A stretch of 37,236 bases of DNA from Metallosphaera yellowstonensis MK1 (GTDB lineage: Archaea; Thermoproteota; Thermoprotei_A; Sulfolobales; Sulfolobaceae): positions 110,604 through 147,839 of the forward strand of contig NZ_JH597761.1 in the NCBI RefSeq assembly GCF_000243315.1, given 5' to 3'. The first letter of the stretch is position 1. The number at the start of each line of letters is the position of its first letter. A program made the translations under genes and the position numbers. Below, piece after piece: positions 21,357 to 37,236 of the stretch. Below the pieces are notes generated by a model, which was given only the letters and a program-made list of their open reading frames with translations, did no database searches and had not been told where the DNA came from.

Positions 21357-22512
21357 GGGCGATTCAGGGCTCCATTGCGATTTCTATTTGTTTCTATAGA
21401 ATGAAAGTGACTTAATTGATCCTACATCAGTACACGAAAAGGGGACGAGCGCTAGGTCATACCATGAGACACTCATTCAATCACGTGGTGACCTCGCTCG
21501 TCCCCGAGTTACTTGGGAAGGACGCGCTATTAAATGAAATAGCTGAGATCGAGAGGAGGGCCCTGGAGGAGAGGAGGACCTCCCCCAGGTACGCCAGGGG
21601 GAAGGAGGTGAGGAGGAGGGGTTACGCCAGGTACAGGTTCTTGAAGGGGTTCAAGGTCTCCCTCTGGGGGTCGTGTACGGGCTGGAGTGGGTCACGGTGA
21701 GGTTGCCCGTGATGTACAGGGGAAGGGAGAGGGTGAGGACTGGAGTGGAGGAGTTGCTCAGGGAGGAGAGGCCGGTGCTCAGGTCCCTCCTCCTGCCCGT
21801 GTTGGGAGGGAAGTTGAACGCCGAGCTCTGGACCCAGGAGCTGGAGGTGAGGGGGACTTCAAGTACGTGGTCGTGGACGGGAAGTACGTGAAGTTGAGGG
21901 GAGGGAGGAGGGGGGTCCTCTTAATCGCGTTGGGACTCACTGACCACGGTGTGAGGGCCGTGCTGGACGTGGTCCCGACCGGGGAAGAGGACGTCGTGAG
22001 CTACTGGGACCTCCCGGTGAGGCTGTGGAGGAGGTACAACCTCACCCTGGTCGTAGCCGACGGGGTGAAGGCCCTAGACACGGCAATCTCCCGTTCCGGG
22101 ATCAAGGTCGCGAGGCAGACCTGCCCGGTCTACCTCAAACGGAGGGTGGACAGGAGGGTGAGGGTCTTGCTGGACCTCCTCCTCTCCTTCGCCGAGTCCG
22201 TCCCCATCCGTGGCTCTCCCCTCCTCTCCTACCTCCTCGCCCCCAGGGAGGCCCCTCCTCAGGTCGAACAACCTGGCCGAGTCCTTCAACTCCCTCCTGG
22301 GGAGTTCGGCAAGTGCCACTCCCCCTGGAGGACCGGATCGCCCGGGCCGTAGCAATCAACTACAACCTCTCGACCTGTTATCTCGCTCTTGTAATAATAT
22401 TACAGAGTCCTTATTTCTTCGTGAAACGGTCAAATATATTCAATAATTCCTCCATTGAATAAGTCCAAATCAACAGAGATATTACAATTTGCAAAGGAGC
22501 CCTGAATCGCCC
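21357..22512 (+). mobile_element. IS256-like insertion sequence, 1156 bp
   Basis: Its ends are GGGCGATTCAGGGCTCC (21357) and the inverted GGAGCCCTGAATCGCCC (ending 22512). It encodes a frameshifted transposase. It truncates the DUF499 gene on its right side. The bases flanking the two ends show no matching duplication, so the outer junctions were probably rearranged after insertion. An inverted copy starts at 36593. Confidence 0.82.
21416..22462 (+). pseudogene. IS256/mutator-type transposase, frameshifted
   Basis: Pieces in several frames: an N-terminal part from 21416; a central part reading VVVDGKYVKLRGGRRGVLLIALGL and VLDVVPTGEEDVVSYWDLP; VVADGVKALDTAISRSGIKVARQTC, with the second catalytic Asp; and a C-terminal SNNLAESFNSLL. 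The DG-x-Y/ALGL/SDG-like/QxC order fits IS256-family DDE transposases, though closer archaeal IS groups are possible. At least two frameshifts make it inactive. Confidence 0.75.
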
Positions 22513-23218
22513 TCCTTTACTCTTCTCCTCTATTTTTGCAGGAATTGTAACTAATAATACTACAGGCAAGTTAGATCCCAAAGAGGCTAAATTCTCAAAG
22601 AAGTACAGACATTGATTATAATAATTACCACCACTTAACCCCTTTAATCTTACTAAATAAGCAGCTATCTCATCTACTAAAATTAATACTCTTTCTCCCT
22701 TAAATAATTCCTCTAGTTTATCTTTCGTCGGTGACATGAGATCTTCGTCGTATTTCCTTACGACATCGTATTTCCTAATCTTTTGGCAATGTATCCCCAC
22801 AAAGTTTTTATCTTAATTCCGTCTTCCTCTATTGGATCTTCTGGGGAAGGTGCAGTTCTACTATCCTTACTTCCAATACCTATTACCTTAATATTTTCAG
22901 GGACTTCAAGACCGAATTCCCTTGCTACCGTAGGATTATTAAAAGCATGAAATAGTAAAAGTACAGTATGAGTTTTACCTCCTCCGAATAAAGAATATAA
23001 CGTCATACTTAGGCCTTTACCTTGAGTCAAAGCATTCGTTATTTCCCTAACTAAACTTTTCATAGAATCGGTAATGTACGTCGAAGAGAAGAATTCTCTG
23101 GAATCAAGATAAATTGATGGTGCGTTTTTAACTATTACGTCACTGAGCTCTGGAGCTACTTGATCGTCCAATTAAATACGTCTTCCCTAACCTTATTCTC
23201 GTAAATCAGATTACTCAT
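22513..23218 (-). pseudogene. DUF499 ATPase, frameshifted and cut off by an IS
   Basis: It starts at ATG 23218, overlapping the methylase stop (ATGA), and reads MSNLIYENKVREDVF. A frameshift near 23165 leads into LDDQVAPELSDVIVKNAP. The conserved DUF499 segment EFFSSTYITDSMKSL and Walker A LFGGGKTHTVLLLFH follow. A second shift near 22775 (one base short) leads to KYDVVRKYDEDLMSP and Walker B VLILVDEIAAYLVRLKG. After about 235 residues the gene ends in the IS at 22512; DUF499 proteins are normally around 1000 aa. DUF499 proteins are the usual partner of DUF1156 methylases in antiviral arrays. This copy cannot be functional unless the missing part lies elsewhere. Confidence 0.8.
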
Positions 23219-26010
23219 TGAACCCACTTTTCTATGTTTGTTTTTTCTCCAGATAAACGCTTAGAAGGTTCCTTTTCTACATCAGAATCATCTAATACTT
23301 TTGTCAAGATTCTAGCAATAGCTAAAGCCTCATCTACGAAACGTGTCCTTTCCTTAAGCTTGTTCACCTCTTCCTTTATCTTATCCGGGTTCTTTAATGA
23401 GATGTATTCGAGATAATGAAATGCTTCAACTGGGTTAGAGAAGTTATAGTCGCCTTGAATAGCCTTTCTTACGTCTGGAAGTTGCTCTAATGCCGAAATG
23501 AGACTAAGTTGATCCTTAGCAGCTTGATCTGGCTCAATAAGTGCAATAGAATCTTTATCTAAACTGATAATCCCATTATCTTGTAGACTTTTAACGTCTA
23601 TGTTTCCAGAAATATTCAAGTAAGTTAGAGAATTTCTAACTAATTTTCTCACTCCTCTTTTTGGAGTTGGAATTAAGAGTTTTACTAAAACGTAGTACGT
23701 TGAATTAGGATTAGAAATTGACACACCTGCACCTTTAGATAGTCCTTCAATTATTGACTGCGTAGTAGTAGGAAATATATACTTAGTAATAAGATCACTT
23801 ACAGCATTAACTCCTTCATCTCCCAATCCTACTAATTTCTCGTATTTTGTAAATACACTAATAACTTTTCCTAAAATTTCTATGTAAGTATCTAAGGAAA
23901 GCTTAAGCTTTCCCTTAGTTAACATGGTTGATATCCAATCTGAGACAGTTGAAATTGCCTCTTTCCTGACTTCTTGAACTAGTTTCTGTCCCTCTGCTCT
24001 TTTCCTCCATACTATAGCCATCGACTTATCTAACGAAATTGTAGTATTACGAGCCGTTATTCGCGTTTCGTCTTCCGTAGTTACCGTATATGTAGTGGTT
24101 ATTCTAAACTTTGAAGAATACCAACTAGCGTAAAGTAGAGAAATCCACGCGTCTGGAGAAGTATGATTATAGAATGTTATGAGTAATCCATCATCGTTTA
24201 AAGATTCGCTAAGCTTGTTAAATGCTTTGGCTAGTCTATCTCTAAAATAATCATAAGTACCAACACTATTATCGAACGTCTTAGTTCTCTTTTCGTCAAC
24301 TCCAATATCTTTTGGTACTAGTTCTTCCCATTGTGTATTATAAGAAAATGGAAAAACTCTTTTTAACCATACATAATAGAAATCACTTACTTCAGGGTAA
24401 GGGACATCGTCTGCATAAGGCGGATCTGTAACTATAAGGTCTATTTTATCGCTTAAATTTAATTCATTTACATCAGAATTAAGAATTTCGACTTGTGAAT
24501 TAGAATTAGTTAGTATCAAATATTCTAATCCTTCTTCTACATGTTCCAAACTTCTAGATAAGGAACCTATAATGTTAGCTAAAGGAGATATTTCAACCCA
24601 GTTCCATGTAAACGCAAATCTTCTAAATGACAATGCATGAGCAATAAATTTTCTGCTAGGTTCAACCGATGTTAAGAAGCAATTATGTCTTATATGATTT
24701 AAGAATGCTATAGTTAAATATGTTATTATAGCTTCTTTATATTTCTCATCTCCTCCAATCTTTTCTTTAAATTCGTTTAATTCGTCAATAATTCTACTAA
24801 AAATCACTAGCTGCCTAGCATCGAATAATTTAAAGAATTTATCTATACCCCATGCAGTAAATCTGAGAACACCGTATGAAGCAACATTCTCTGTAGGTAT
24901 TTTGCTTATATCAATTTCCCTTAATCTAGCAAATGATTCCCAGAATTTTTTCTCATCTTCTTCTGTAATCTCTTCAAAAGCTATGTCTTTCGATTCTCCA
25001 TTAAATTTTATGAGAAGTTTAGGTCTAGCTTTAGAATTACGTAAGTCTTCTAGGTTTATTTCTCCATTTAAAAATCTTTCATAATTCTTATTCCACTCTT
25101 TTATTGCTTCTTTTATGTACCATTTATCACCTTTACCGGGGAATACATTATTACAGTACAAACATCTGGCATTACTACTTTTAGCACTAAAGTTTCCCTC
25201 GGGTACGTCATAATCTTTTCCATCTACTATAATTTTATTCTTACTTACCTTAGCTGTTATACTTTGTTTATTAAACTCTTTATTTAGGTCTAAAACCTTT
25301 ATTCTAAGGTTACCTCCATTAATTTCTGGCTTCATAAAAACTATTCTCTTAAACTTTCCAGACTTAACTCCTTCTTCGTTTTCTCCTTCATTACTTTTCA
25401 TAGCCATTAGCCACCACTGCTTAGCCAAAGGAGTGTAATTACCGCAATGGGGGCATTTAACTTCCCATGTCCCCACAAACCCATTGTCTTCATACAATTC
25501 TTTTACATAGTTTTCTAAGCTCTTAAGGAGTTCATCCCCATATTTTTTAACGTCGTCTATAAGTTTCTTTCCATATTTAGGATATTCCAATACTGCCTTT
25601 AGAAATACGTAGGCAGTAGGTAAAAGTTCTGATGCAATAACTTTACCTATTCCTAATCTTTTAGCCTCTAACGGAATTGAACCGAAACCTGCAAAAGGAT
25701 CTAAAAGCGTAAAGCCCTTAAATCTACCGTTAGTTATAGGCTGAAGTTTATGAGGAATTTCAGTCTTTGGACCGTTATTTTGAAGTCTAATCATTCTTTT
25801 AAATTCGTCTAATGGAAAATCTTCAGGTAACAGTGCAGCAGCTGTGAAAGCTCTGGCTGAAATAAGAGGTTTTCTAGTCCACCAAAAAATCATTTCCCAA
25901 TAAGTTGGTCTTCCAGGACCTTTCTCTCTAGCTGCTTGTTTATCTATTTTAGGAATTAAAGTTGCGAAAGAATCACTTTCGATTAACCGTCTCCCATTAT
26001 TTATTGCCAT
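23215..26010 (-). CDS. DUF1156 DNA methyltransferase
   Basis: About 931 aa. MIFWWTRKPLISARAF (about residues 40-56) is the N-terminal DUF1156 signature. The SAM-binding motif LLDPFAGFGSIPLEAKR is at about 102-118 and the catalytic TDPPYADDVPYPEVSDFYYVW at about 528. Two zinc-type pairs, CPHCG (about 187) and CLYC (about 284), lie in a large insert that may recognise the target sequence. The DPPY motif indicates N6-adenine or N4-cytosine methylation. The C-terminal 230 residues are unassigned. I prefer ATG 26010 because a TATA box lies 25 bp upstream; a TTG at 26016 is two codons earlier. It is coupled to the broken DUF499 gene. Its expected role is to mark host DNA for the defence array. Confidence 0.88.
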   Translation of the reverse strand: MAINNGRRLIESDSFATLIPKIDKQAAREKGPGRPTYWEMIFWWTRKPLISARAFTAAALLPEDFPLDEFKRMIRLQNNGPKTEIPHKLQPITNGRFKGFTLLDPFAGFGSIPLEAKRLGIGKVIASELLPTAYVFLKAVLEYPKYGKKLIDDVKKYGDELLKSLENYVKELYEDNGFVGTWEVKCPHCGNYTPLAKQWWLMAMKSNEGENEEGVKSGKFKRIVFMKPEINGGNLRIKVLDLNKEFNKQSITAKVSKNKIIVDGKDYDVPEGNFSAKSSNARCLYCNNVFPGKGDKWYIKEAIKEWNKNYERFLNGEINLEDLRNSKARPKLLIKFNGESKDIAFEEITEEDEKKFWESFARLREIDISKIPTENVASYGVLRFTAWGIDKFFKLFDARQLVIFSRIIDELNEFKEKIGGDEKYKEAIITYLTIAFLNHIRHNCFLTSVEPSRKFIAHALSFRRFAFTWNWVEISPLANIIGSLSRSLEHVEEGLEYLILTNSNSQVEILNSDVNELNLSDKIDLIVTDPPYADDVPYPEVSDFYYVWLKRVFPFSYNTQWEELVPKDIGVDEKRTKTFDNSVGTYDYFRDRLAKAFNKLSESLNDDGLLITFYNHTSPDAWISLLYASWYSSKFRITTTYTVTTEDETRITARNTTISLDKSMAIVWRKRAEGQKLVQEVRKEAISTVSDWISTMLTKGKLKLSLDTYIEILGKVISVFTKYEKLVGLGDEGVNAVSDLITKYIFPTTTQSIIEGLSKGAGVSISNPNSTYYVLVKLLIPTPKRGVRKLVRNSLTYLNISGNIDVKSLQDNGIISLDKDSIALIEPDQAAKDQLSLISALEQLPDVRKAIQGDYNFSNPVEAFHYLEYISLKNPDKIKEEVNKLKERTRFVDEALAIARILTKVLDDSDVEKEPSKRLSGEKTNIEKWVQ

Positions 26011-26027
26011 ACGCAATAAGAAACTTC

Positions 26028-26886: not shown

Positions 26887-28689
26887 TTATTGAACTAAAC
26901 CCTTTACAGCTTTAGCTGTTCCTATATCTTCAAAAAATACATATACCCCTCTTATACCCCTAGTCAGCATAATATAATATCTATTCTTAAGTAGCAATAG
27001 AGCTTTATCTCTTTTCTTAGGATTATTAGCTAACTTCTTTAGTGAAGACGACCCTCCCACGTAATCGGTTATAGGTCCAGGATTAACAATCCACTCTCCA
27101 TTATGCCATATTAAGTCTCTTCCCCATACTACTCCTACATAATCCGCCTCAAAACCTTGTGAACCGTAAACTGAAGAACAATATTTTAGAGAATCTAGTT
27201 CTCCTTTCCAATATCTAGGATATTCGGTTTCCTCATCCATTAACCATTTTACCTTTATTTCATTACCTTCATATTTCATTCCCTTATATAAGTCAAAGCC
27301 CGATTGCAAAGGATAACCTATCCTTATATTCTTTGTACTTTCCCAACTAGTTTTGTTGTTATTATCACCCTCAGATTCTGTGAAGGAACATATAAGAGCA
27401 GTTTTCATTCCATGATTTTTCTCGTTCTTTAACTCATTGAACATATCAGTAATGTTATCAAATATCTTAAAGTCAAAATCACCAGACTTAGCTTTTTCTC
27501 CTTGTAATATCTTTCTTACAAATTCCAAATATTGTTTAGGCTCACGAAATGGTGAAGATAATTTATACTCACTTACGTTTTGCAAATACTTGAGTAAGTT
27601 TTCCCTAGTTCCGGCCTCATTACCTATAAGAACTTGAGAATCATCATAAAAATATACGTTTATCTTTCCTTTAGGAGAATTTCTAATTACATTGTCGGTC
27701 ATTCTTTGAGCTTCGTCAAAGACTATTAAGTCTATATCAGTCTTACTCTCTTTACTCTTAATATGTTTAGAGAACCATTCATCAAACCCTTTTTCTCCTA
27801 TTCCTATATTACGTCCAGTGGAGTAAAACATTACTAATGAGGAAAGTTCCCTACCCAAAGCTTGTCTTACAGCATTTATAAGTCTGTTATTTTTATAGGC
27901 TAAGATTGCGAAATAACCTCGGCTTAAAGCCTCCAAATATAAGGTAATTGCGAGCAAACTTTTCCCAGAACCGCTTTCACCTTGTATGATAAAGTTTTTC
28001 CTTTCGCCCTTAGCCAGAGAGTCTAAAACGTCTTTTAAAACTCGCATTTGTTCTTCCGTTAAGCCGTAGCCAGTAGATAAAAGAACTTTGCTTACGTCTT
28101 TTAATCGTTTTTCTTTTACTTTTTTAACAAGTTCTATGAAAGTGTGTTTAAGCATTAGCTTACTATCTACAATTTTTCTTGCGTCGTTCAGATCGCCAGA
28201 AGGTAAATTTTTGAGCTCATTCCTTAGTTCTTCTATAGTTCTAAGCGTTTTACATTCTTCAGACGAATAATCCCTAGTATTGTAAAGGAAAAGCAGGCCT
28301 TTAAACTTTAGATTAGAAGAATGGAAAAAGTTTAACTTATATACATAATTATTGAGTTGGTAACAAGGATCCAAGTGAAGTTCTCCGTCTGCCTCTACTA
28401 CGTTATCTCCTAATTTCTTTACTGATCTCCAGCCCTTTGCCTCAACTACTACAGCCTTATCTTTATCTGCAAAAATAATGTCTGCTCTTTCTGTGAAAAT
28501 AGGGTATTCTAGGATAATTGGATGAGGAACGTTCAATTCCTGTAAGAGATCCAATAGTTTCTTCCACGCATTTTCTTGCTGAATAGAAGGCTTCTCGTTG
28601 TAAGTTTCAATATACTCATTCACTAAATTATTGTAGGCTTCGTCTGTTGCCGCTTTGAGTATTACTGGGAGCACACTACTAGTCACCAA
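26887..28689 (-). CDS. nuclease-helicase: PD-(D/E)XK-like N-terminus plus DUF2075 helicase
   Basis: A 600-aa protein. Residues 60-90 contain ERADIIFADKDKAVVVEAKG, the D...ExK pattern of a PD-(D/E)XK/NERD-type nuclease. From about 215 it is a DUF2075-type SF1 helicase: GESGSGKSLLAIT (Walker A, about 236-248), LIVFDEAQRM (Walker B, about 319-328), and YYIMLTRGIRGVYVFFED near the C-terminus (motif VI-like, about 570-587). It is likely a DNA- or RNA-degrading effector or processing enzyme. The listed start is TTG 28689. GTG 28674 is better spaced from the TATA box at 28691-28700. The second gene of its operon is the MITE-broken 61-aa ORF. Confidence 0.82.
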   Translation of the reverse strand: MVTSSVLPVILKAATDEAYNNLVNEYIETYNEKPSIQQENAWKKLLDLLQELNVPHPIILEYPIFTERADIIFADKDKAVVVEAKGWRSVKKLGDNVVEADGELHLDPCYQLNNYVYKLNFFHSSNLKFKGLLFLYNTRDYSSEECKTLRTIEELRNELKNLPSGDLNDARKIVDSKLMLKHTFIELVKKVKEKRLKDVSKVLLSTGYGLTEEQMRVLKDVLDSLAKGERKNFIIQGESGSGKSLLAITLYLEALSRGYFAILAYKNNRLINAVRQALGRELSSLVMFYSTGRNIGIGEKGFDEWFSKHIKSKESKTDIDLIVFDEAQRMTDNVIRNSPKGKINVYFYDDSQVLIGNEAGTRENLLKYLQNVSEYKLSSPFREPKQYLEFVRKILQGEKAKSGDFDFKIFDNITDMFNELKNEKNHGMKTALICSFTESEGDNNNKTSWESTKNIRIGYPLQSGFDLYKGMKYEGNEIKVKWLMDEETEYPRYWKGELDSLKYCSSVYGSQGFEADYVGVVWGRDLIWHNGEWIVNPGPITDYVGGSSSLKKLANNPKKRDKALLLLKNRYYIMLTRGIRGVYVFFEDIGTAKAVKGLVQ

Positions 28690-29138: not shown

Positions 29139-30215
29139 ATGTTAATGAGATATTGGGGCAGGAAACCGTTAGAGCTCATTGATAAAATAATGATTGATGT
29201 TCACGGTACCGTTATTGATCCATTTGGGGGTGGTGGTACAATAGTATTTTCAGCCTTAAGACATGATAATAAGGCTATATATTTAGATATTAATCCTTAT
29301 GCATGGTTAGTAACTTTTGTTAACGTAGTAAGTATTGATCCGAAAGAGTTTGAGGAGAAAAGTAAAGAAGTTTTGGAAAACGTTTATTTAGAATCTGTAT
29401 TTTCTCTTCATAATGATTATCTTTATTATCCTAATGGTAAATTTTTTTGGAAAAGAAGAAATGCTGATAGGATTACAGAGTTTTTCTCTAGAGAAAATTT
29501 CATAAAGCTATTTTCTATTTTAAAGAGTATTGACAAAGTTGAGAGTGAAACTGAGGTAAAAATAGCACTTTATGCTACATTTTGTTCTTCTCTTTTCACG
29601 TCTTCAAGAATGAAACGAAGAAACTCTGGTAGCTGGGGAGTACCTTCTTATTGGGTTCCAAAAGAACATGAAGAAGTGAATGCGGAAGAGGCTTTTAAAA
29701 TGTCTGTTAAACGTTTTTCGTCTTATTTTAGGAGAAATAAAGGTTATGAATTAAACGTAGATGTTAAACTTTTAATAGGTAACGCATTAGCTTTTAATTA
29801 CCCTGATCAGTCAATAGTTTTCACTGATCCACCGTATTTTGATGAAATACAATATATGGAATTATCCTTTTTCTATTGGGCCTGGTTAAGGGAAAGTAAT
29901 TTCAAAAAAGTAATTCGAGAAGTTTTAGGCTATGAACCCGAATTTAGAATTAGTGATGAGATAATTGTTAATCCTAATAGAGGAGTTACGTTTGACAAAT
30001 ATATGGAAACGCTAAAGGCGTTCATCACAAAGGTTTCTAAAGTAAACTCTAAGTATCTTCTCTTTCATTATGATAATGACAAGCTAAGAGAAAAGGTTAT
30101 TAAAATAGTCAAGGAAAATTGGACAAGGATAAAGGTTAATGATTTTGAAATAGTAAAACAAAGGAAAATTGGACCTAGAGGAGGTAAAAAATATTTGTTA
30201 GTTTCAAGTCCTTAA
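29139..30215 (+). CDS. DPPY-type DNA methyltransferase (DUF1156-related)
   Basis: A 358-aa protein. It opens with MRYWGRKPLELIDK, a shortened form of the DUF1156 WxRKPL signature. SAM motif VIDPFGGGGTIVFSALRH is at about 26-43, and catalytic motif FTDPPYFDEIQYMELSFFYWAW at about 228-249. It is much smaller than the DUF1156 protein at 23215-26010 and lacks its zinc-finger insert, so it should recognise a different target or form part of a two-subunit methylase. A TATA box (TTTTATATT, about 29110-29118) gives a leaderless start. It converges on the DUF1998-PLD gene with a 4-bp overlap of stop codons. Confidence 0.85.
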   Translation: MLMRYWGRKPLELIDKIMIDVHGTVIDPFGGGGTIVFSALRHDNKAIYLDINPYAWLVTFVNVVSIDPKEFEEKSKEVLENVYLESVFSLHNDYLYYPNGKFFWKRRNADRITEFFSRENFIKLFSILKSIDKVESETEVKIALYATFCSSLFTSSRMKRRNSGSWGVPSYWVPKEHEEVNAEEAFKMSVKRFSSYFRRNKGYELNVDVKLLIGNALAFNYPDQSIVFTDPPYFDEIQYMELSFFYWAWLRESNFKKVIREVLGYEPEFRISDEIIVNPNRGVTFDKYMETLKAFITKVSKVNSKYLLFHYDNDKLREKVIKIVKENWTRIKVNDFEIVKQRKIGPRGGKKYLLVSSP

Positions 30216-32335
30216 GTAGAATTGCTTTTATCTATTATTTCACTGAATTGATCTAAGAATTTTTTGACAGTATTCTCGTCTATACTTACTACTTCAGATT
30301 CTACGTTTTTTTGCAAACCGTTGATAGTAAAGTTTGCCGAACCGTGCATAGTTATAGAGTCATCTATTATCAACATCTTTGTATGCACAATTCCTTGAGA
30401 ATCGGCCTTAAGTTTTATTACCTTAATTTGGTTATTTTCTGCCAATTGTATTGCGTCTTTATTTTTATCGTCGTCTAATGTCACTATCGTAATATCTAGG
30501 TCTCTGTAGGCTTTAATATTAGTGAGATCGTCTATTATATCTTTTCCTATCCAAGGTGAAACAATCTTGATGTTTTTTTGAGCCAGTCTTATTAAATCAA
30601 TAAATATGTTATATAAGCCTTTAGTAATTATGAACTTTGCTTCTCCCATCCAATCCTTATATGTGCTCAAGAATTCACTTACTAACTCTCTACTTACAAG
30701 AAACGGCTGATCGTAAGGACCAAACATACAGCCTTTATCCATACCTACACAAGAATTGCAGCCATCCCAACATAGCGGTAAAGATGATACTACGTCTTTA
30801 AACGTTTGCCTAGTATTGGAATCTTTATTAATTTCCTTTCTTTTAACCTTTCCTACATAATTTCTTACAGCTAAGTGTAAAGGATGAGTGTATTGATATT
30901 GCGAACTCCATTCATTATAGACGTCATAAAGTATATCTAATATACTTTTATCTATTTTACTATTGAAATTATAAATGGTATTCTTCATGTTATTTAAGGA
31001 ACTGTTGAATCTTTTTTCATGATTTGGAAAGTCTAAGGTTAATATGTCAGTTATAAGATTTAGTAAGTTTGTATCTCTCTTTCCTATCATATTAGCTATA
31101 GCCCTAATGTATCCTAGTCCTCCATAAACACTTTCAATAATATATACTGCTGATAAATTTGCGAGCTTATTATTGCCCATTAAGTTACGCAAAATAGGAT
31201 GAGTTATAAAATATGTTATGTCATTAAGTACAGAAGATGATGGGGTAATAGGTATTATTATCTTGCTAATGATCATGTGAGCCAAAGTATGTAATAATAT
31301 AAAGCTGCCAAATTCTGCAAGGTCTTCAATGTCACAATCATTTTTCTGCTGATTTCCTTTACGTAAATCGTCAAATTCTTTTTCAAATCTTTTCATGGCA
31401 TTAAACCCTGCATTACTATTATTTAGATTGACGTAAAGCCTTTTTTTAGAACCGAAGTATATCTTCTTTTTAACGCAAAGCCATGCTCTTAGTTTAGAAT
31501 TATTATCAAGCAAATATTTTATATAATCTCGTAAAGTATATATACTGAATTTAATTATTATTCCATTTAATTTTCTAAGTCTAAAGCCTATTCCTTCTTT
31601 ATAGCTTACCCATAGAAAATCTTTATACATAAGGTCAGCATACTTTGAGTAAAAGATTGAAGCATCGGCAAAAGCATGTAATTTTATCGTATCGCTAAAC
31701 TCTATCTTTCCTATTATTCTCTCAACGTTATTAATTTTAACGGTAATTAAAGAAATTATTTTTCCTTTTTTCCCTATTTCTCCTTCTTCTTCTGCGAATC
31801 TTACGATATGTGGAACAACAGTGTATAATCTCTCGTAAGAAACTGGTCCATAATAATATTTACAAGCATTTTTTCCTTCGAATGCCTCACATTTGTTCAT
31901 TAATGGACATTGTCGTTTATCATTAAGGAGTACGAAGCCATATTTACAATAATATCCATGAATCAGAGAATCATAGTTAAAATTCATTAATTTAGGAAAT
32001 ATTGATATAACATCAGTCTTAGAAATTTTGTTTCTATTTTTCAAATTCATATCCTCGTATTTTATGCTGGTTTTATTGTTCTCGTTGAATAATGTTGCAT
32101 TAATTGTTGAAGGTAATATAACCTTAAAGTTTTCTCTGCTATAGAAAAAGGGCGTGTAACTATCTACTATGCCGTTATTCCAATTTAGATTTCCAGGTGT
32201 TGAATTTAAATATGTTATAGGTACTAAAATTATTGCATATTTTCTCCTACCGAATAATTGTTTAAATGGCGTAAACGTATAAAGTGACTGAATTCCACTT
32301 TTTTGAGTTCCAGAAAATTCACTCATCATTATCAC
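30212..32335 (-). CDS. DUF1998 protein fused to a C-terminal PLD nuclease domain (DrmB-DrmC-like)
   Basis: A 707-aa protein. CPLMNKCEAFEGKNACKYYYG (about 137-157) is a cysteine cluster. LHTLAHMIISK (about 335-345) with YIIESVYGGLGYIRA (about 398-412) is the DUF1998 core, and the cysteine-rich CWDGCNSCVGMDKGC (about 521-535) matches the zinc/iron site of DUF1998 proteins. The C-terminus (about 560-705) is a phospholipase-D-like domain with HTKMLIIDDSITMHGSANFT (about 652-671), an HxKx4Dx6GSxN motif. In DISARM, DrmB (DUF1998) and DrmC (PLD) are separate; here they are one chain. One HKD motif suggests it works as a dimer. Start GTG 32335 or ATG 32329; overlaps the helicase by 17 bp. Confidence 0.85.
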   Translation of the reverse strand: MIMMSEFSGTQKSGIQSLYTFTPFKQLFGRRKYAIILVPITYLNSTPGNLNWNNGIVDSYTPFFYSRENFKVILPSTINATLFNENNKTSIKYEDMNLKNRNKISKTDVISIFPKLMNFNYDSLIHGYYCKYGFVLLNDKRQCPLMNKCEAFEGKNACKYYYGPVSYERLYTVVPHIVRFAEEEGEIGKKGKIISLITVKINNVERIIGKIEFSDTIKLHAFADASIFYSKYADLMYKDFLWVSYKEGIGFRLRKLNGIIIKFSIYTLRDYIKYLLDNNSKLRAWLCVKKKIYFGSKKRLYVNLNNSNAGFNAMKRFEKEFDDLRKGNQQKNDCDIEDLAEFGSFILLHTLAHMIISKIIIPITPSSSVLNDITYFITHPILRNLMGNNKLANLSAVYIIESVYGGLGYIRAIANMIGKRDTNLLNLITDILTLDFPNHEKRFNSSLNNMKNTIYNFNSKIDKSILDILYDVYNEWSSQYQYTHPLHLAVRNYVGKVKRKEINKDSNTRQTFKDVVSSLPLCWDGCNSCVGMDKGCMFGPYDQPFLVSRELVSEFLSTYKDWMGEAKFIITKGLYNIFIDLIRLAQKNIKIVSPWIGKDIIDDLTNIKAYRDLDITIVTLDDDKNKDAIQLAENNQIKVIKLKADSQGIVHTKMLIIDDSITMHGSANFTINGLQKNVESEVVSIDENTVKKFLDQFSEIIDKSNST

Positions 32336-35201
32336 TCTCGTCTACGTCTACAAGTAGGTTAATATTTGGCGAAGGTGGGAGCATTAATAAACTAAAGAAA
32401 ACATAATTTGCAAATATCTTATCTAAAAGTGTAAACACATCTACATGGTTTGATTGCGTAATTAATGTTTTATTAAAACTAGAGATAAATCCTATAAATC
32501 TTAAATACTTCTCATAACCTTGATCTAATGCAGCATTAATTATTTCAACTAAATCACTAGTTTTCTCAAGGGCTTTTTTAACGCTATCTTTTATATCCGA
32601 TAGAAGATCACTTTTTTCTTTTTCATTGATAATATCTAGCAGATTATTTGAGGAATTGGATATTTTTATGTTATCTAATTTTTTATTAAAATTCTCAAGA
32701 TTTTTCAATTTTATGTTTAAGTTTTGTATAAGAGATTTAAGGCTATTATTACTAGCTGTACCAGAATATAAGCTATCTTGAATTTCTTTTACTATTTCAA
32801 AGCTTTTATTTAATATATAAATAATTTCTTTCTTATCAAATATCTTGAGTTCATCAGTATTTTGTTCTTCTATAAAATTTGCCGCCTCTGATATAGAATT
32901 GAGAGTATTATTTATGTATTCGTCTATTTTCTGACTAATTTCCATATTATTATTTTTATTGTCAATAATAATTTCCATATCATTATTAAGCTGCATTAAA
33001 GTATCTTTTAAGGTCTGTTTTAGTTCTTCGTCTGAAAGGTCTAGGCATAGTTGCTTCTTCAATTCTTTCGTAGTATCTTCTGAAGCCAAGGCATTAATAG
33101 ATTGAGAGATTAATTGCCTAGCTATATCTTTGCACTCATCATATTTATTTCCATCATCTACACAAGTACTAATACCTTTAACTGCCCATTTTAAAAGAAT
33201 GTATGAAAAGATATGCTGTAGTGTAATTTCAATATTCATAGAATTAGTTGTAATGAAACGTAATTTTGAATTTAGGTTAGTTAATGTATTTCTGAGATCA
33301 TCGTTATAGATATATAGTGACGCATAGGGTGTAGATTGTAATGTTAATATACCAGTAGCTATTCTGTAATTATTTTCGTTCCTTCCCGCTCTTCCTATTC
33401 TTTGAATAAAACTCTCTTTTGACAATGGCAATTTATGTTGAATTACTAATGCTACATCTCCTATATCGATACCTAACTCCAATGTAGATGTAGAAAATAG
33501 AAGTAATTTTGTTTTATCTTTCTTGAAGCTTTCTTCTATTTCTGATCTTTTTTCAGGAGACAAGAGAGAATAATGTTCATCTATTCCATTTTTTATATTC
33601 TCGGCGAAATTTCTCAGTTCGTCGTCGTCTCCACATATCTTGCTATAGGCTGCTAGGAAAGGCCAATAGTACTCGTCTTTACAACATAAATTTTTAGGAT
33701 CTTTGTAACAAAGATGATCCCTTATTTCTCTACCTTGTCTTCCTCCTAGAATCGTATTCCAAAAATATTTGTAGAAAGTATCTACTCCCGACACGCTATC
33801 AGCAAAAAGTATACCTTTGCGATTGTACTCCTTAAGCCAAGTTAATGCCAACTGAGTTACCTCCTCAGTTAGTGTTTCAACTCCTCTTTCTATGTTAGGA
33901 AAAAGAAATTCGTATAATATTATTCTCTCCTTTTTATTTTCTAAATGCTGATTTTTATAATAATCTTCTAATGATAAAATTTCTGGTATGCAATTTTCAT
34001 TCTCGCAGCAAGCTATTTTAGTTAGAAAATTTTTATAATCTGGAATAGTTGCAGATGAAAATATTATTTTATCAATATAATCTTTTTCTGTAAGATTCTT
34101 CAATGACTCAAGTAATCTTAAGATAAATTTCAAGTGTTGAGTATATATACCGTCGTAGGCATGAATTTCATCAAGCACGATATACCTAATGTTTTTAAAA
34201 CTCTGTACTGTTTCTCTATTGAGAAGTCTCCTATAGAGTATCCATAAATTAGTAACTAAAATATTTGAGTACTCTTTATGGATATCTTCTCTAGTTGCAA
34301 TAAGGTAATCGTATTTATGCCCACACTTTTTACATTCTATTTTTCTATTATTATATATGAGATCTCCTCCGCATTTTACACATTTTAGTCCTCTATACGC
34401 ATCACCGTTCCTTATTTCATATGCCTTTGGTGTATCTCCATCTTCTAATGCAATTGTAACCATTTTATTATATTTTTTCAATTCATCGTTAATTATAGAA
34501 ACATATTTAAGAAGTCTAAAGATTTGATCTTTTGCCAAAGCCTTTCTTGGATATATAAATACTACATTGATTGGTTCTTCTCCTCTAATTACGCTTTCTA
34601 ACAAATATACAAGCCCAGGTAAAGTAAATGCTAATGTCTTTCCACTAGCAGTAGGAGCTACTAATGGTATATACTTATAATCAGTAGAGAGAATTTGCTC
34701 AATTATATACAATTGATAACTCGATATACTTTTTATTTTGGGATCATATTCGTTTAATATTCTCTTAATAATTTTCATTATAAGGATAACATCATCTTTG
34801 GATACTCGATCTCTGACTAATTTATCTTGAATAATTTTAAGTATTTCATTAAAACTATGCGCTTCAAAATCTGGAAATGGTTCTTCTTTTAACTCAATAT
34901 CATATTCTAAAGCGTAAGGCGAATCGTTTTTATAAGCTCTTACATGAGCGGCCTTTGCTAGAAGAGTCATATGGGCTGTCCTATATTTACCACATAAATT
35001 TATAATCATTTTATTATTTATCAATCCTGTAAGTAATTGATTTCCATTATTTAAATTTAAATTTGATATAATATTATTTAACTCGTTGGCATCAAGAAAA
35101 GTTGTAGCAAAGTCTTTATTTTTCTTAAATTTATCAACCTCATACTTTAAAATCGCTTGATATAGTCTAATTTCATCTTCAGTAGGTATTTTGACAGCCA
35201 T
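32319..35201 (-). CDS. SF2 helicase with inserted zinc ribbon (DrmA-like)
   Basis: A 960-aa protein. VAPTASGKTLAFTLPG (motif I, about 181-196), a zinc ribbon CVKCGG...CKKCGH (about 272-293), YIVLDEIHAYDG (motif II, about 339-350), FSSATIP (motif III, about 380), LGIDIGDVALVIQ (about 570-582) and FIQRIGRAGR (motif VI, about 597-606). The C-terminal ~320 residues are coiled-coil-rich and lysine/asparagine-rich. Helicases of this kind pair with DUF1998 proteins (MrfA-type fusions, or DrmA-DrmB in DISARM). It is the middle gene of a three-gene operon, 5 bp after the 418-aa gene. It probably translocates on invading DNA and feeds the PLD domain. Confidence 0.87.
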   Translation of the reverse strand: MAVKIPTEDEIRLYQAILKYEVDKFKKNKDFATTFLDANELNNIISNLNLNNGNQLLTGLINNKMIINLCGKYRTAHMTLLAKAAHVRAYKNDSPYALEYDIELKEEPFPDFEAHSFNEILKIIQDKLVRDRVSKDDVILIMKIIKRILNEYDPKIKSISSYQLYIIEQILSTDYKYIPLVAPTASGKTLAFTLPGLVYLLESVIRGEEPINVVFIYPRKALAKDQIFRLLKYVSIINDELKKYNKMVTIALEDGDTPKAYEIRNGDAYRGLKCVKCGGDLIYNNRKIECKKCGHKYDYLIATREDIHKEYSNILVTNLWILYRRLLNRETVQSFKNIRYIVLDEIHAYDGIYTQHLKFILRLLESLKNLTEKDYIDKIIFSSATIPDYKNFLTKIACCENENCIPEILSLEDYYKNQHLENKKERIILYEFLFPNIERGVETLTEEVTQLALTWLKEYNRKGILFADSVSGVDTFYKYFWNTILGGRQGREIRDHLCYKDPKNLCCKDEYYWPFLAAYSKICGDDDELRNFAENIKNGIDEHYSLLSPEKRSEIEESFKKDKTKLLLFSTSTLELGIDIGDVALVIQHKLPLSKESFIQRIGRAGRNENNYRIATGILTLQSTPYASLYIYNDDLRNTLTNLNSKLRFITTNSMNIEITLQHIFSYILLKWAVKGISTCVDDGNKYDECKDIARQLISQSINALASEDTTKELKKQLCLDLSDEELKQTLKDTLMQLNNDMEIIIDNKNNNMEISQKIDEYINNTLNSISEAANFIEEQNTDELKIFDKKEIIYILNKSFEIVKEIQDSLYSGTASNNSLKSLIQNLNIKLKNLENFNKKLDNIKISNSSNNLLDIINEKEKSDLLSDIKDSVKKALEKTSDLVEIINAALDQGYEKYLRFIGFISSFNKTLITQSNHVDVFTLLDKIFANYVFFSLLMLPPSPNINLLVDVDESDNDE

Positions 35202-35206
35202 AATAT

Positions 35207-36463
35207 CTACACCTTATTTAATAATCTTGAAGTATAAATTCTTTTTAGCTTTTGAATTATCTCTGTTATAGTTTTATATTCAATATTATAATCATTAATT
35301 ATTTTAATTAATTCTTCTTTTTTATTAACTATATTTTTAGTATTATCTCTAAATAGATTCAAAAGTTTCTTTCTTTTAATCTCATCTTTTAAAATATTAT
35401 TGACTAACAAAGTATATAATTGTTCATTCTCAAAAGCAATGGAAGTTAGTTCCGGATGCACAAATATTATATTATTTCTATTATCAACAACAAAAATCCT
35501 TATTTTAAAGTCGTTATAATTAAAAGAAAACATCTCTTCTATATCATTTCCAGATTGTATGTAAATATTCATTTTTATTGGCGAACTATTTACCTTTTGT
35601 ATAAATTTAGAGAATTTTTCAATTATATTTTTGAATTCCTGAAAACTACATATTTTAAGAAAATCATCATTATCTAACTTAGTTACATATATACTTCTAA
35701 GTATCATTAGGATAATCCTTGATTTTATATCTAATTTATTATAATATCCTCCTTTTTCGTTATTATACTCTATAAGGAAGTTATTATTGCTTATTTTACA
35801 TTTATCCTCTCCTGTTCTCTCTATAATAATCCTCTTAACTAATAGATACGTCAATAAATTTTTCTCTATGTTATTATCTAAATTAATATTTCTAAAATTT
35901 AAATTTATATCCAAGTATTTACCATTAGTATCTATACTAGCATAAGTATGATAAATTTTGAATATAGTTAGGTGTCTTTGTCTAACATATATGTAAATGT
36001 TTCCACGAAATATGTTATTCTCGTTAAATGGTAGACTCAAAGAAAATAGCCAATATGTACCATAAGTATCCAATAACTTATCATTAGATAAAACATTTCC
36101 GTTATGACTTTTATTGTAATCGCAAATACCACAAGAATGACATATTAAACTCTTGTCATATTTAACTATCTTATTAGAAAATTCTCTGAAAAAATCTTTG
36201 TGCTGTCCCCAATATTTATAAGTCATTATCCTATCCTGAGTTAAAACATATATTGGCAGAAACATACCCGTATTGAATACGTTCCCTTTCCAAAGAAAAA
36301 TTCGTTTGACAGTGATTGGACCTACTAGATTACCTAAATTAAAAAAGTATACATGGGTACCACCGTAAGCATAGTCCCGAATGCTATTATATTGTTGCTC
36401 GTATTTATTGCAACCACGAAGAAGGAATTTTACGTGTTCCTCATGATCGGACTTATCCGCCAT
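35207..36463 (-). CDS. unrecognised 418-aa protein heading the helicase operon
   Basis: A 418-aa protein without a motif I know. A cysteine triplet, CHSCGIC (about residues 108-114), could hold zinc. It is rich in Asn, Ile, Tyr and Lys, as AT-rich genes are, with many beta-strand-like stretches in the first 200 residues and a helical C-terminal 80 residues. It is the first gene of the operon with the helicase and DUF1998-PLD protein, so it is likely a core or recognition subunit of the same complex, in the position where DISARM variants carry drmD, drmE or other variable genes. Start ATG 36463 fits a TATA box about 30 bp upstream. Confidence 0.75.
   Translation of the reverse strand: MADKSDHEEHVKFLLRGCNKYEQQYNSIRDYAYGGTHVYFFNLGNLVGPITVKRIFLWKGNVFNTGMFLPIYVLTQDRIMTYKYWGQHKDFFREFSNKIVKYDKSLICHSCGICDYNKSHNGNVLSNDKLLDTYGTYWLFSLSLPFNENNIFRGNIYIYVRQRHLTIFKIYHTYASIDTNGKYLDINLNFRNINLDNNIEKNLLTYLLVKRIIIERTGEDKCKISNNNFLIEYNNEKGGYYNKLDIKSRIILMILRSIYVTKLDNDDFLKICSFQEFKNIIEKFSKFIQKVNSSPIKMNIYIQSGNDIEEMFSFNYNDFKIRIFVVDNRNNIIFVHPELTSIAFENEQLYTLLVNNILKDEIKRKKLLNLFRDNTKNIVNKKEELIKIINDYNIEYKTITEIIQKLKRIYTSRLLNKV
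36234..36320. repeat. 87-bp direct repeat, copy 1 (inside the 418-aa gene)
   Basis: Identical base for base to 36506-36592. It covers codons about 48-76 of the 418-aa gene. Confidence 0.9.
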
Positions 36464-36505: not shown

Positions 36506-36592
36506 TCCTGAGTTAAAACATATATTGGCAGAAACATACCCGTATTGAATACGTTCCCTTTCCAAAGAAAAATTCGTTTGACAGTGATTGGA
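36506..36592. repeat. 87-bp direct repeat, copy 2 (between promoter and IS)
   Basis: A perfect copy of 36234-36320, lying upstream of the gene it came from and touching the IS end at 36593. It contains no start and is a displaced gene fragment. Confidence 0.9.
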
Positions 36593-37236
36593 GGGCGATT
36601 CAGGGCTCCTTTGCGAATTGTAATATCTCTGTTGATTTGGACTTATTCAATGGAGGAATTATTGGATATATTTGACCATTTCACGAAGAAATAAGGAACC
36701 TTGTAATATTATTACAAGAGCGAGATAACAGGTCGAGAGGTTGTAGTTGAGGGCTATGGCCTGGGCGATCTGGAGTATCCTCCAGGGAGAGTGGCACTTC
36801 CCGAACCTCCTCCTCTCCAGGAGGGAGTTGAAGGACTCGGCCAGGTTGTTCGACCTGAGGAGGGGCCAGAGCTCCCTGGGGGCGAGGAGGTAGGAGGGGA
36901 GAGCCACGGGTGGGGACGGACTCGGCGAGGGAGAGGAGGAGGTCCAGCAAGACCCTCACCCTCCTGTCCACCCTCCGTTTGAGGTGGACCAGGCAGGTCT
37001 GCCTCGCGACCTTGATCCCGGAGCGGGAGATTGCCGTGTCTAGGGCCTTCACCCCGTCGGCTACGACCAGGGTGAGGTTGTACCTCCTCCACAGCCTCAC
37101 CGGGAGGTCCCAGTAGCTCACGACGTCCTCCTCCCTGGTCGGGACCACGTCAAGCACGGCCCTCACACCGTGGTCAGTGAGTCCCAACGCGATTAAGAGG
37201 ACCCCCCTCCTCCCTCCCCTCAACTTCACGTACTTC
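36593..37236 (-). mobile_element. IS256-like element, inverted copy at window edge
   Basis: It begins with GGGCGATTCAGGGCTCC and matches, in reverse, the right half of the element at 21357-22512 with scattered differences. On the minus strand it encodes LRGGRRGVLLIALGL, VVADGVKALDTAISRSG and a C-terminal LLRSNNLAESFNSLLERRRFG in a shifted frame. The rest lies beyond the window. With the left copy it brackets the whole defence island. Confidence 0.82.
36659..37236 (-). pseudogene. IS256-like transposase, C-terminal part, frameshifted
   Basis: The central catalytic region runs in one frame until about 36900. It then continues only in a second frame (from about 36907) that reads ALPSYLLAPRELWPLLRSNN and FGKCHSPWRILQIAQAIALN. 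The frame change shows this copy is also defective, though its C-terminal end is better preserved than in the copy at 21416-22462. Confidence 0.7.

Follow-up and report, generated by a model that had tools for sequence, protein, structure and literature searches.

The three-gene operon described here likely belongs to a DNA-targeting, restriction-like antiviral system, which represents a rare archaeal branch of the YprA-helicase family. The operon encodes a 418-aa protein (U418), an SF2 helicase (HEL) and a 707-aa protein (canopy-PLD), in which a predicted DUF1998 canopy is fused to a PLD-type nuclease, and it is adjoined by a DNA methylase gene. Direct support comes from the domains and their intact motifs, the operon structure, its recurrence, the linkage to a methylase, and the placement of the helicase outside the MrfA and BRIGADE branches. 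An antiviral role of the set is probable by analogy with related systems. The set is most suitably placed as a rare archaeal branch of its own within the YprA-helicase defence family. The term DISARM-like probably describes how it works, but membership in DISARM itself fails on the features tested.

The window, i.e., the whole 37,236 nt stretch that was analysed (G000:C10:110604-147839), is part of a 2.8-Mb genome. The G+C content is mostly about 0.50-0.59 in the left of the window and 0.21-0.35 over most of 22.8-36.5 kb. Two inverted IS256/Mutator-family copies bound the AT-rich stretch that holds the operon (Table 1). From left to right this island contains the DUF499 remnant, the DUF1156 methylase, the Schlafen-type helicase, the DPPY methylase (plus strand) and the three-gene operon (minus strand). 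The IS copies flank the island in the fashion of a composite transposon, and the left copy adjoins the truncated DUF499 gene. An exact 87-nt direct repeat is present at positions 36234-36320 and 36506-36592. It represents a piece of the 418-aa gene (approximately codons 48-76); the second copy is just upstream of the promoter region of this gene and abuts the end of the right IS copy.

Table 1. Positions of the operon, its motifs and neighbouring features in the window
Feature	Position	Strand	Remarks
U418, 418-aa protein, operon gene 1	35207-36463	-	ORF intact
HEL, YprA-family SF2 helicase, 960 aa, operon gene 2	32319-35201	-	ORF intact
Canopy-nuclease protein (canopy-PLD), 707 aa, operon gene 3	30212-32335	-	Predicted CON-like beta-rich sheet, DUF1998/MZB, PLD
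DNA methyltransferase, 358 aa	29139-30215	+	DPPY motif; convergent with operon
Walker A of HEL	34635-34658	-	Residues 182-189, TASGKT
Zinc ribbon in RecA1 of HEL	34323-34382	-	C274, C277, C290, C293
DEIH box of HEL	34161-34172	-	Residues 344-347
Motif VI of HEL	33381-33404	-	QRIGRAGR, residues 600-607
Predicted DUF1998/MZB region of canopy-PLD	30716-31318	-	Residues 340-540; HTLAH, GGLGY, C522/C526/C529/C536
PLD-type nuclease domain of canopy-PLD	30236-30601	-	Residues 579-700; single HKD motif
Catalytic HKD of canopy-PLD	30332-30385	-	H651-x-K653-x4-D658...G665-S666-x-N668
Schlafen-group-3-type helicase	26887-28689	-	Weak N-terminal NERD match; neighbour, outside the assigned core
DUF1156 methyltransferase	23215-26016	-	Part of neighbouring DUF499-centred (BR/Hma-type) system
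DUF499 ATPase remnant, 137 aa	22758-23171	-	Cut short near IS copy
Left IS256/Mutator-family transposase copy	21881-22515	+	Inverted relative to right copy
Right IS256/Mutator-family transposase copy	36590-37236	-	93-98% identical to left copy

The gap between the 418-aa gene and the helicase gene is 5 nt. The helicase and 707-aa genes overlap by 17 nt if the listed GTG start is used, and by ATGAGTGA if the aligned ATG near 32326 is used, which is likely the true start. An overlap between the helicase stop codon and the beginning of the canopy-PLD gene is also seen in genomes G357 and G540. At its 3' end the 707-aa gene overlaps the methylase gene by 4 nt, tail to tail. A first-pass annotation of this DNA had described three tightly spaced minus-strand genes at 30212-36463, encoding an unrecognised 418-aa protein, an SF2 helicase with a zinc ribbon and a DUF1998-PLD fusion, with a DPPY methylase facing them. 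It had also described the gene content as DISARM-like, with drmB-like and drmC-like domains on one chain. This description holds in all of these points; the ORFs are intact and the methylase is convergent with the 707-aa gene.

HEL has Pfam matches to DEAD (8.9e-19) and Helicase_C (1.1e-16), and Walker A, DEIH, motif V and motif VI are all intact. Its best solved-structure relative is YprA/MrfA (7e-42), and the closest defence profiles are DpdJ, SngC, BrxH and DrmA. The hallmark of the YprA family, an SF2 core with a CON-DUF1998/MZB module, is found in the set, and both parts are in a single chain in genomes G062 and G238. The N-terminal domain of HEL does not align with the N-termini of DrmA or BRIGADE when compared by hhalign (0.07 for DrmA), whereas the comparison with DpdJ gives 1.4e-4 over 123 columns. 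HEL and DpdJ also have the Cys pairs of the RecA1 zinc ribbon in common. The spacing from DExH to motif VI is 256 residues in HEL, compared with 203 in DrmA, 177 in MrfA and about 860 in BRIGADE-like helicases.

In the 707-aa protein Pfam detects PLDc_2 (6.7e-17), and the HKD motif is complete. The protein does not itself reach the Pfam MZB model; MZB is found in four of 12 aligned family members (best E 5.6e-6). The Cys cluster LCWDGCNSCVGMDKGC of this protein aligns with CEDGCPKCIYDPYC of the MrfA-like helicase from the same genome, and profile alignment of the 707-aa family with the C-termini of DrmB and Dpd proteins gives E values of 3-4e-4, compared with 0.07-0.5 for Lhr controls. A second conserved Cys cluster is N-terminal (C130, C143, C149). 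The structure model displays a long-stranded beta-sheet and a helical region at residues 170-545 and leaves the N-terminal 170 residues without resolved structure. Because the best 50 Foldseek matches listed are all PLD-type, the identification of a CON/DUF1998 canopy is sequence-based. With this assignment, the zinc-binding lid of the helicase is predicted to be made as a separate protein that is fused to the nuclease.

Recurrence was determined by single-sequence, profile and helicase-profile searches over the archaeal phylum and class. Pairs of helicase and canopy-PLD genes are found at 12 loci of one archaeal phylum, i.e., in the window and at 11 further loci (L020-L026, L028, L059, L090 and L091; genomes G357, G540, G133, G208, G135, G395, G183, G310, G485, G072 and G337). 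The archaeal assignment of these genomes is based on named controls and on their gene content. Two additional loci encode helicase, canopy and PLD in one chain: a 1677-aa protein in G238, which is from the same family as the window genome, and a 1593-aa protein in G062 with DEAD, Helicase_C and PLDc_2 matches in that order. The PLD part of the G238 protein has a partly degenerate look. Separate helicase and canopy genes, a DISARM-type feature, are thus present at 12 of the 14 loci, window included. Catalytic motifs are intact across family proteins that are mostly 18-30% identical. The helicase clade is present in 12 of 398 sampled genomes of the phylum, and this patchy spread is as expected for horizontally moved defence genes. 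A scan of 84,980 species genomes with narrow patterns from the 707-aa protein and a four-sequence alignment gave no confirmed relative. Viral contigs searched with the 418-aa and 707-aa families, and plasmids searched with the 707-aa protein, gave no match; plasmids searched with the helicase gave only Dpd-type, haloarchaeal BRIGADE-like and a few other helicases.

A methylase that matches the profile of the window methylase adjoins 12 of the 14 loci, including both one-chain forms, and is among the most conserved partners, so that its treatment as a bystander is not sustained. It probably marks the cell's own DNA against self-attack. The PADLOC search with the window methylase gave no DrmM model among the matches listed. 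The methylase is absent beside the set in the close relatives G310 and G485, where an EVE-like ORF is found instead. EVE-type proteins, readers of modified bases, are encoded beside the set at L025:1476-1901 (confirmed by Pfam) and, as sequence look-alikes, at L028:8591-9061 and L059:11386-11856; L028 and L059 have the EVE-like ORF and are missing the methylase.

Searches of Pfam, PADLOC, NCBIfam and PHROGs with U418 gave no convincing match. Homologs are present only in G540 (56% identical) and G357 (38%), in the same cluster, which limits the protein to three genomes of one family and makes it the least conserved part of the operon. The first-pass annotation had proposed a survey for the three-gene order: the pair of helicase and canopy-PLD recurs at the 11 further loci and its order is conserved in other genomes, but the leading 418-aa gene is confined to these three genomes. 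An AlphaFold2 model of the 418-aa protein alone, also proposed there, has a pLDDT of 51, too weak to interpret, and gave no Foldseek match below 0.001. DpdI has an equivalent place before the helicase in Dpd, and no similarity to U418 was found. Orphan ORFs encoding 424-473 aa without recognised domains are present within the cluster in G133, G062, G238, G072 and G337 and are like U418 in place or size. Their coordinates, not in the order of these genomes, are L090:12437-13849, L091:15239-16513, L058:6873-8270, L057:14534-15895 and L022:3982-5403. As candidate homologs they show no significant similarity to U418. Weak collinear matches come from G133 only (E 0.007 and 0.016), are near the level of unrelated controls, and homology is not claimed.

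Phylogenetic trees were constructed with PMSF from core RecA1/RecA2 columns and include 11 split and two one-chain helicases. The HEL-type helicases cluster together, with bootstrap/SH-aLRT values of 87/93 (90/92 for an earlier set) and with one-chain and split forms intermixed, apart from Dpd (100/97), haloarchaeal BRIGADE-like helicases and DISARM DrmA. In AU tests a union with the MrfA-like helicase is rejected (p 0.01), as is a union with BRIGADE (p 0.022). A union with Dpd has a p of 0.20; a union with DrmA, represented by one sequence, has a p of 0.28 and is not found in the best tree. The tree leaves both DISARM and Dpd as candidates for the nearest sister, because the columns come from a profile of the HEL family itself and only one DrmA is included (G129, L063, same phylum).

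Bell et al. 2025 list DISARM, Dpd, ARMADA, BRIGADE, TALON and Druantia as the YprA defence family (PMC12458937), and the available portion of the main text has no description of a canopy-PLD fusion in trans to the helicase. It is possible, if tentative at somewhat less than an even chance, that the set represents a separate class of YprA immunity, characterised by a canopy-PLD fusion that acts in trans with the split helicase and by a dedicated methylase, with fast-evolving, lineage-specific accessories of 420-470 aa that may act as sensors or specificity factors. Such a class would be distinct from all six systems.

The resemblance to Dpd is the closest in profile scores. In PADLOC the best match of HEL is DpdJ (1.7e-38; DrmA is weaker at 2.3e-26), and the best profile match of the nuclease part is DpdK. 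The helicase N-terminal domain, the RecA1 zinc ribbon and a PLD without an extra helical bundle are common to both. The set could then be a derived Dpd type, i.e., a DpdJ/DpdK effector module that has lost base modification and gained a methylase, and the tree, with the p value given above, is compatible with this. This derivation is judged unlikely. The scores are far under the Dpd equivalog cut-offs (HEL 112 bits vs 800 for DpdJ; 707-aa protein 38.5 bits vs 100 for DpdK), and neither the window nor any related locus has a match to DpdA, B, D, G or H, a methylase being present in place of the 7-deazaguanine genes. The helicase is split from its canopy, Dpd is a supported group of its own, and the DUF1998 cysteines are retained, although Bell et al. 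mention deeper-branching Dpd-like systems that also retain them (PMC12458937).

An origin as a true DISARM, in the form of a divergent archaeal class with a secondary drmB-drmC fusion, is still less probable. The likeness is one of organisation, with the same four activities (helicase, DUF1998, single-HKD PLD nuclease and DNA methylase) in a defence island and with separate genes for helicase and canopy, an arrangement that is consistent only in DISARM according to Bell et al. (PMC12458937). The AU test also tolerates a union with DrmA. The first-pass annotation had suggested a distinct archaeal branch of DISARM and a comparison with DrmA, DrmB and DrmC profiles. All three scores are far under the cut-offs: 16 bits vs 999 for HEL with NF038326 (DrmA), and 13 vs 240 and 36 vs 133 for the 707-aa protein with NF038324 (DrmB) and NF038319 (DrmC). 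The canopy is fused to the nuclease and not separate, and only approximately 40 residues lie between the DUF1998 cysteines and the PLD, so that the N-terminal helical bundle usual in DrmC would not fit. HEL is without the long N-terminal extension of DrmA (Walker A at residue 182 vs 427), its N-terminus is DpdJ-like, and one-chain relatives exist. The set behaves as a distinct archaeal branch, as suggested, but its assignment to DISARM is not supported.

Other members of the family also differ. Druantia III DruE is similar in that a PLD is fused after the DUF1998/MZB module in a single polypeptide, but it is one chain of about 2,000 aa with two PLD domains and large RecA1-RecA2 insertions, and the system has DruH as partner and no methylase (PMC12458937, PMC13192584). 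ARMADA, BRIGADE and TALON have YprA-family defence helicases as well. However, the large BrxA-like and other RecA1-RecA2 insertions of ARMADA, BRIGADE and Druantia are absent from HEL, BRIGADE has the much longer DExH-motif VI spacing, and ARMADA has Vsr nucleases and a BrxHII partner (PMC12458937).

DUF1156/DUF499 genes, which belong to BR/Hma systems (PMC12839542, PMC8565338), adjoin five of the 14 loci, including all three with U418. The two also have a related methylase type and a helicase-plus-nuclease logic in common. Their side-by-side location would fit the set as the effector arm of this neighbouring system, but nine of the 14 loci are without DUF1156/DUF499 in the stretch read and this relationship is very improbable. 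The complete DUF1156-DUF499-SNF2 module beside the operon in G357 and G135 has its own helicase, which is SNF2 and not YprA, lacks DUF1998 and is centred on a DUF499 ATPase, as expected of a separate module; G540 shares the gene order, and in both G540 and G357 the set and this module lie in opposite arrangement. Least credible of all is an MrfAB-like DNA-repair helicase-nuclease with the methylase as bystander, which the structural match to YprA/MrfA would favour, since the helicase is outside the MrfA-type repair branch, which the first-pass annotation had named as a non-defence branch, its partner is a PLD protein and not an MrfB exonuclease, a compact YprA-like helicase is already present elsewhere in the window's genome (L064), and the set is patchily distributed, is carried in an island and adjoins a methylase.

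For the proposed separate YprA-family branch, a mechanism can be modelled on the DrmAB structures (PMC9142583) and Druantia III DruE (PMC13192584); we infer complex formation, dimerisation, substrate, self-methylation, antiviral activity and the role of U418 from these models. DrmAB is an autoinhibited helicase-canopy complex that is activated by 5'-overhang DNA and repressed by methylation (PMC9142583). HEL, with its RecA1/RecA2 motor and Dpd-like N-terminal domain, would pair with canopy-PLD, and the CON/DUF1998 part of the latter would clamp the motor as DrmB clamps DrmA. Each PLD has a single HKD motif and should therefore act as a dimer, so a 2:2 complex is the probable active unit. Invader DNA that is single-stranded or carries an overhang would serve as the loading site of the helicase, and ATP-driven movement of the helicase, relayed via DUF1998, would bring two PLD domains together for cutting. 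Self-attack would be prevented through marking of the host DNA by the neighbouring methylase, and U418 may be a lineage-specific accessory such as a sensor, regulator or specificity factor. The separate nuclease of DISARM is reported to be dispensable (PMC9142583), so the present set may link its helicase to cutting in another way; the PLD of DruE, fused after the Zn module, is required for defence (PMC13192584).

The set bridges three systems that are currently regarded as separate: DISARM, in which helicase and canopy are split and the nuclease is free; Dpd, with a single chain and base modification; and Druantia III, in which the nuclease is fused. The presence of split and one-chain forms in one clade provides a natural comparison for how DUF1998 relays the helicase state to the nuclease, a question that also arises in DISARM, whose nuclease is reported to be dispensable. 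With nuclease and canopy on one chain, a single active-site substitution would suffice to probe whether the nuclease is needed. The set also adds a probable antiviral system to the archaeal repertoire, of which the part other than CRISPR has been little explored.

Several further features were noted in the window and in related genomes. The full-length DUF499 gene encodes 1094 aa in G357 and G540, compared with the truncated copy in the window. At L020:1-4690 in G357 there are two facing copies of the DUF1156 methylase; one is apparently complete (with L088) and the other is split into several ORFs. An Eco57I-type restriction-modification system adjoins the set in G395 and G183. The Schlafen-group-3-type helicase family of the window is also found near the one-chain relative in G238 (L057:6146-7666). 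In G129, from the same phylum, L063:10525-15922 contains a DISARM core, with a DrmA of 2659 bits followed by DrmB- and DrmC-like genes.
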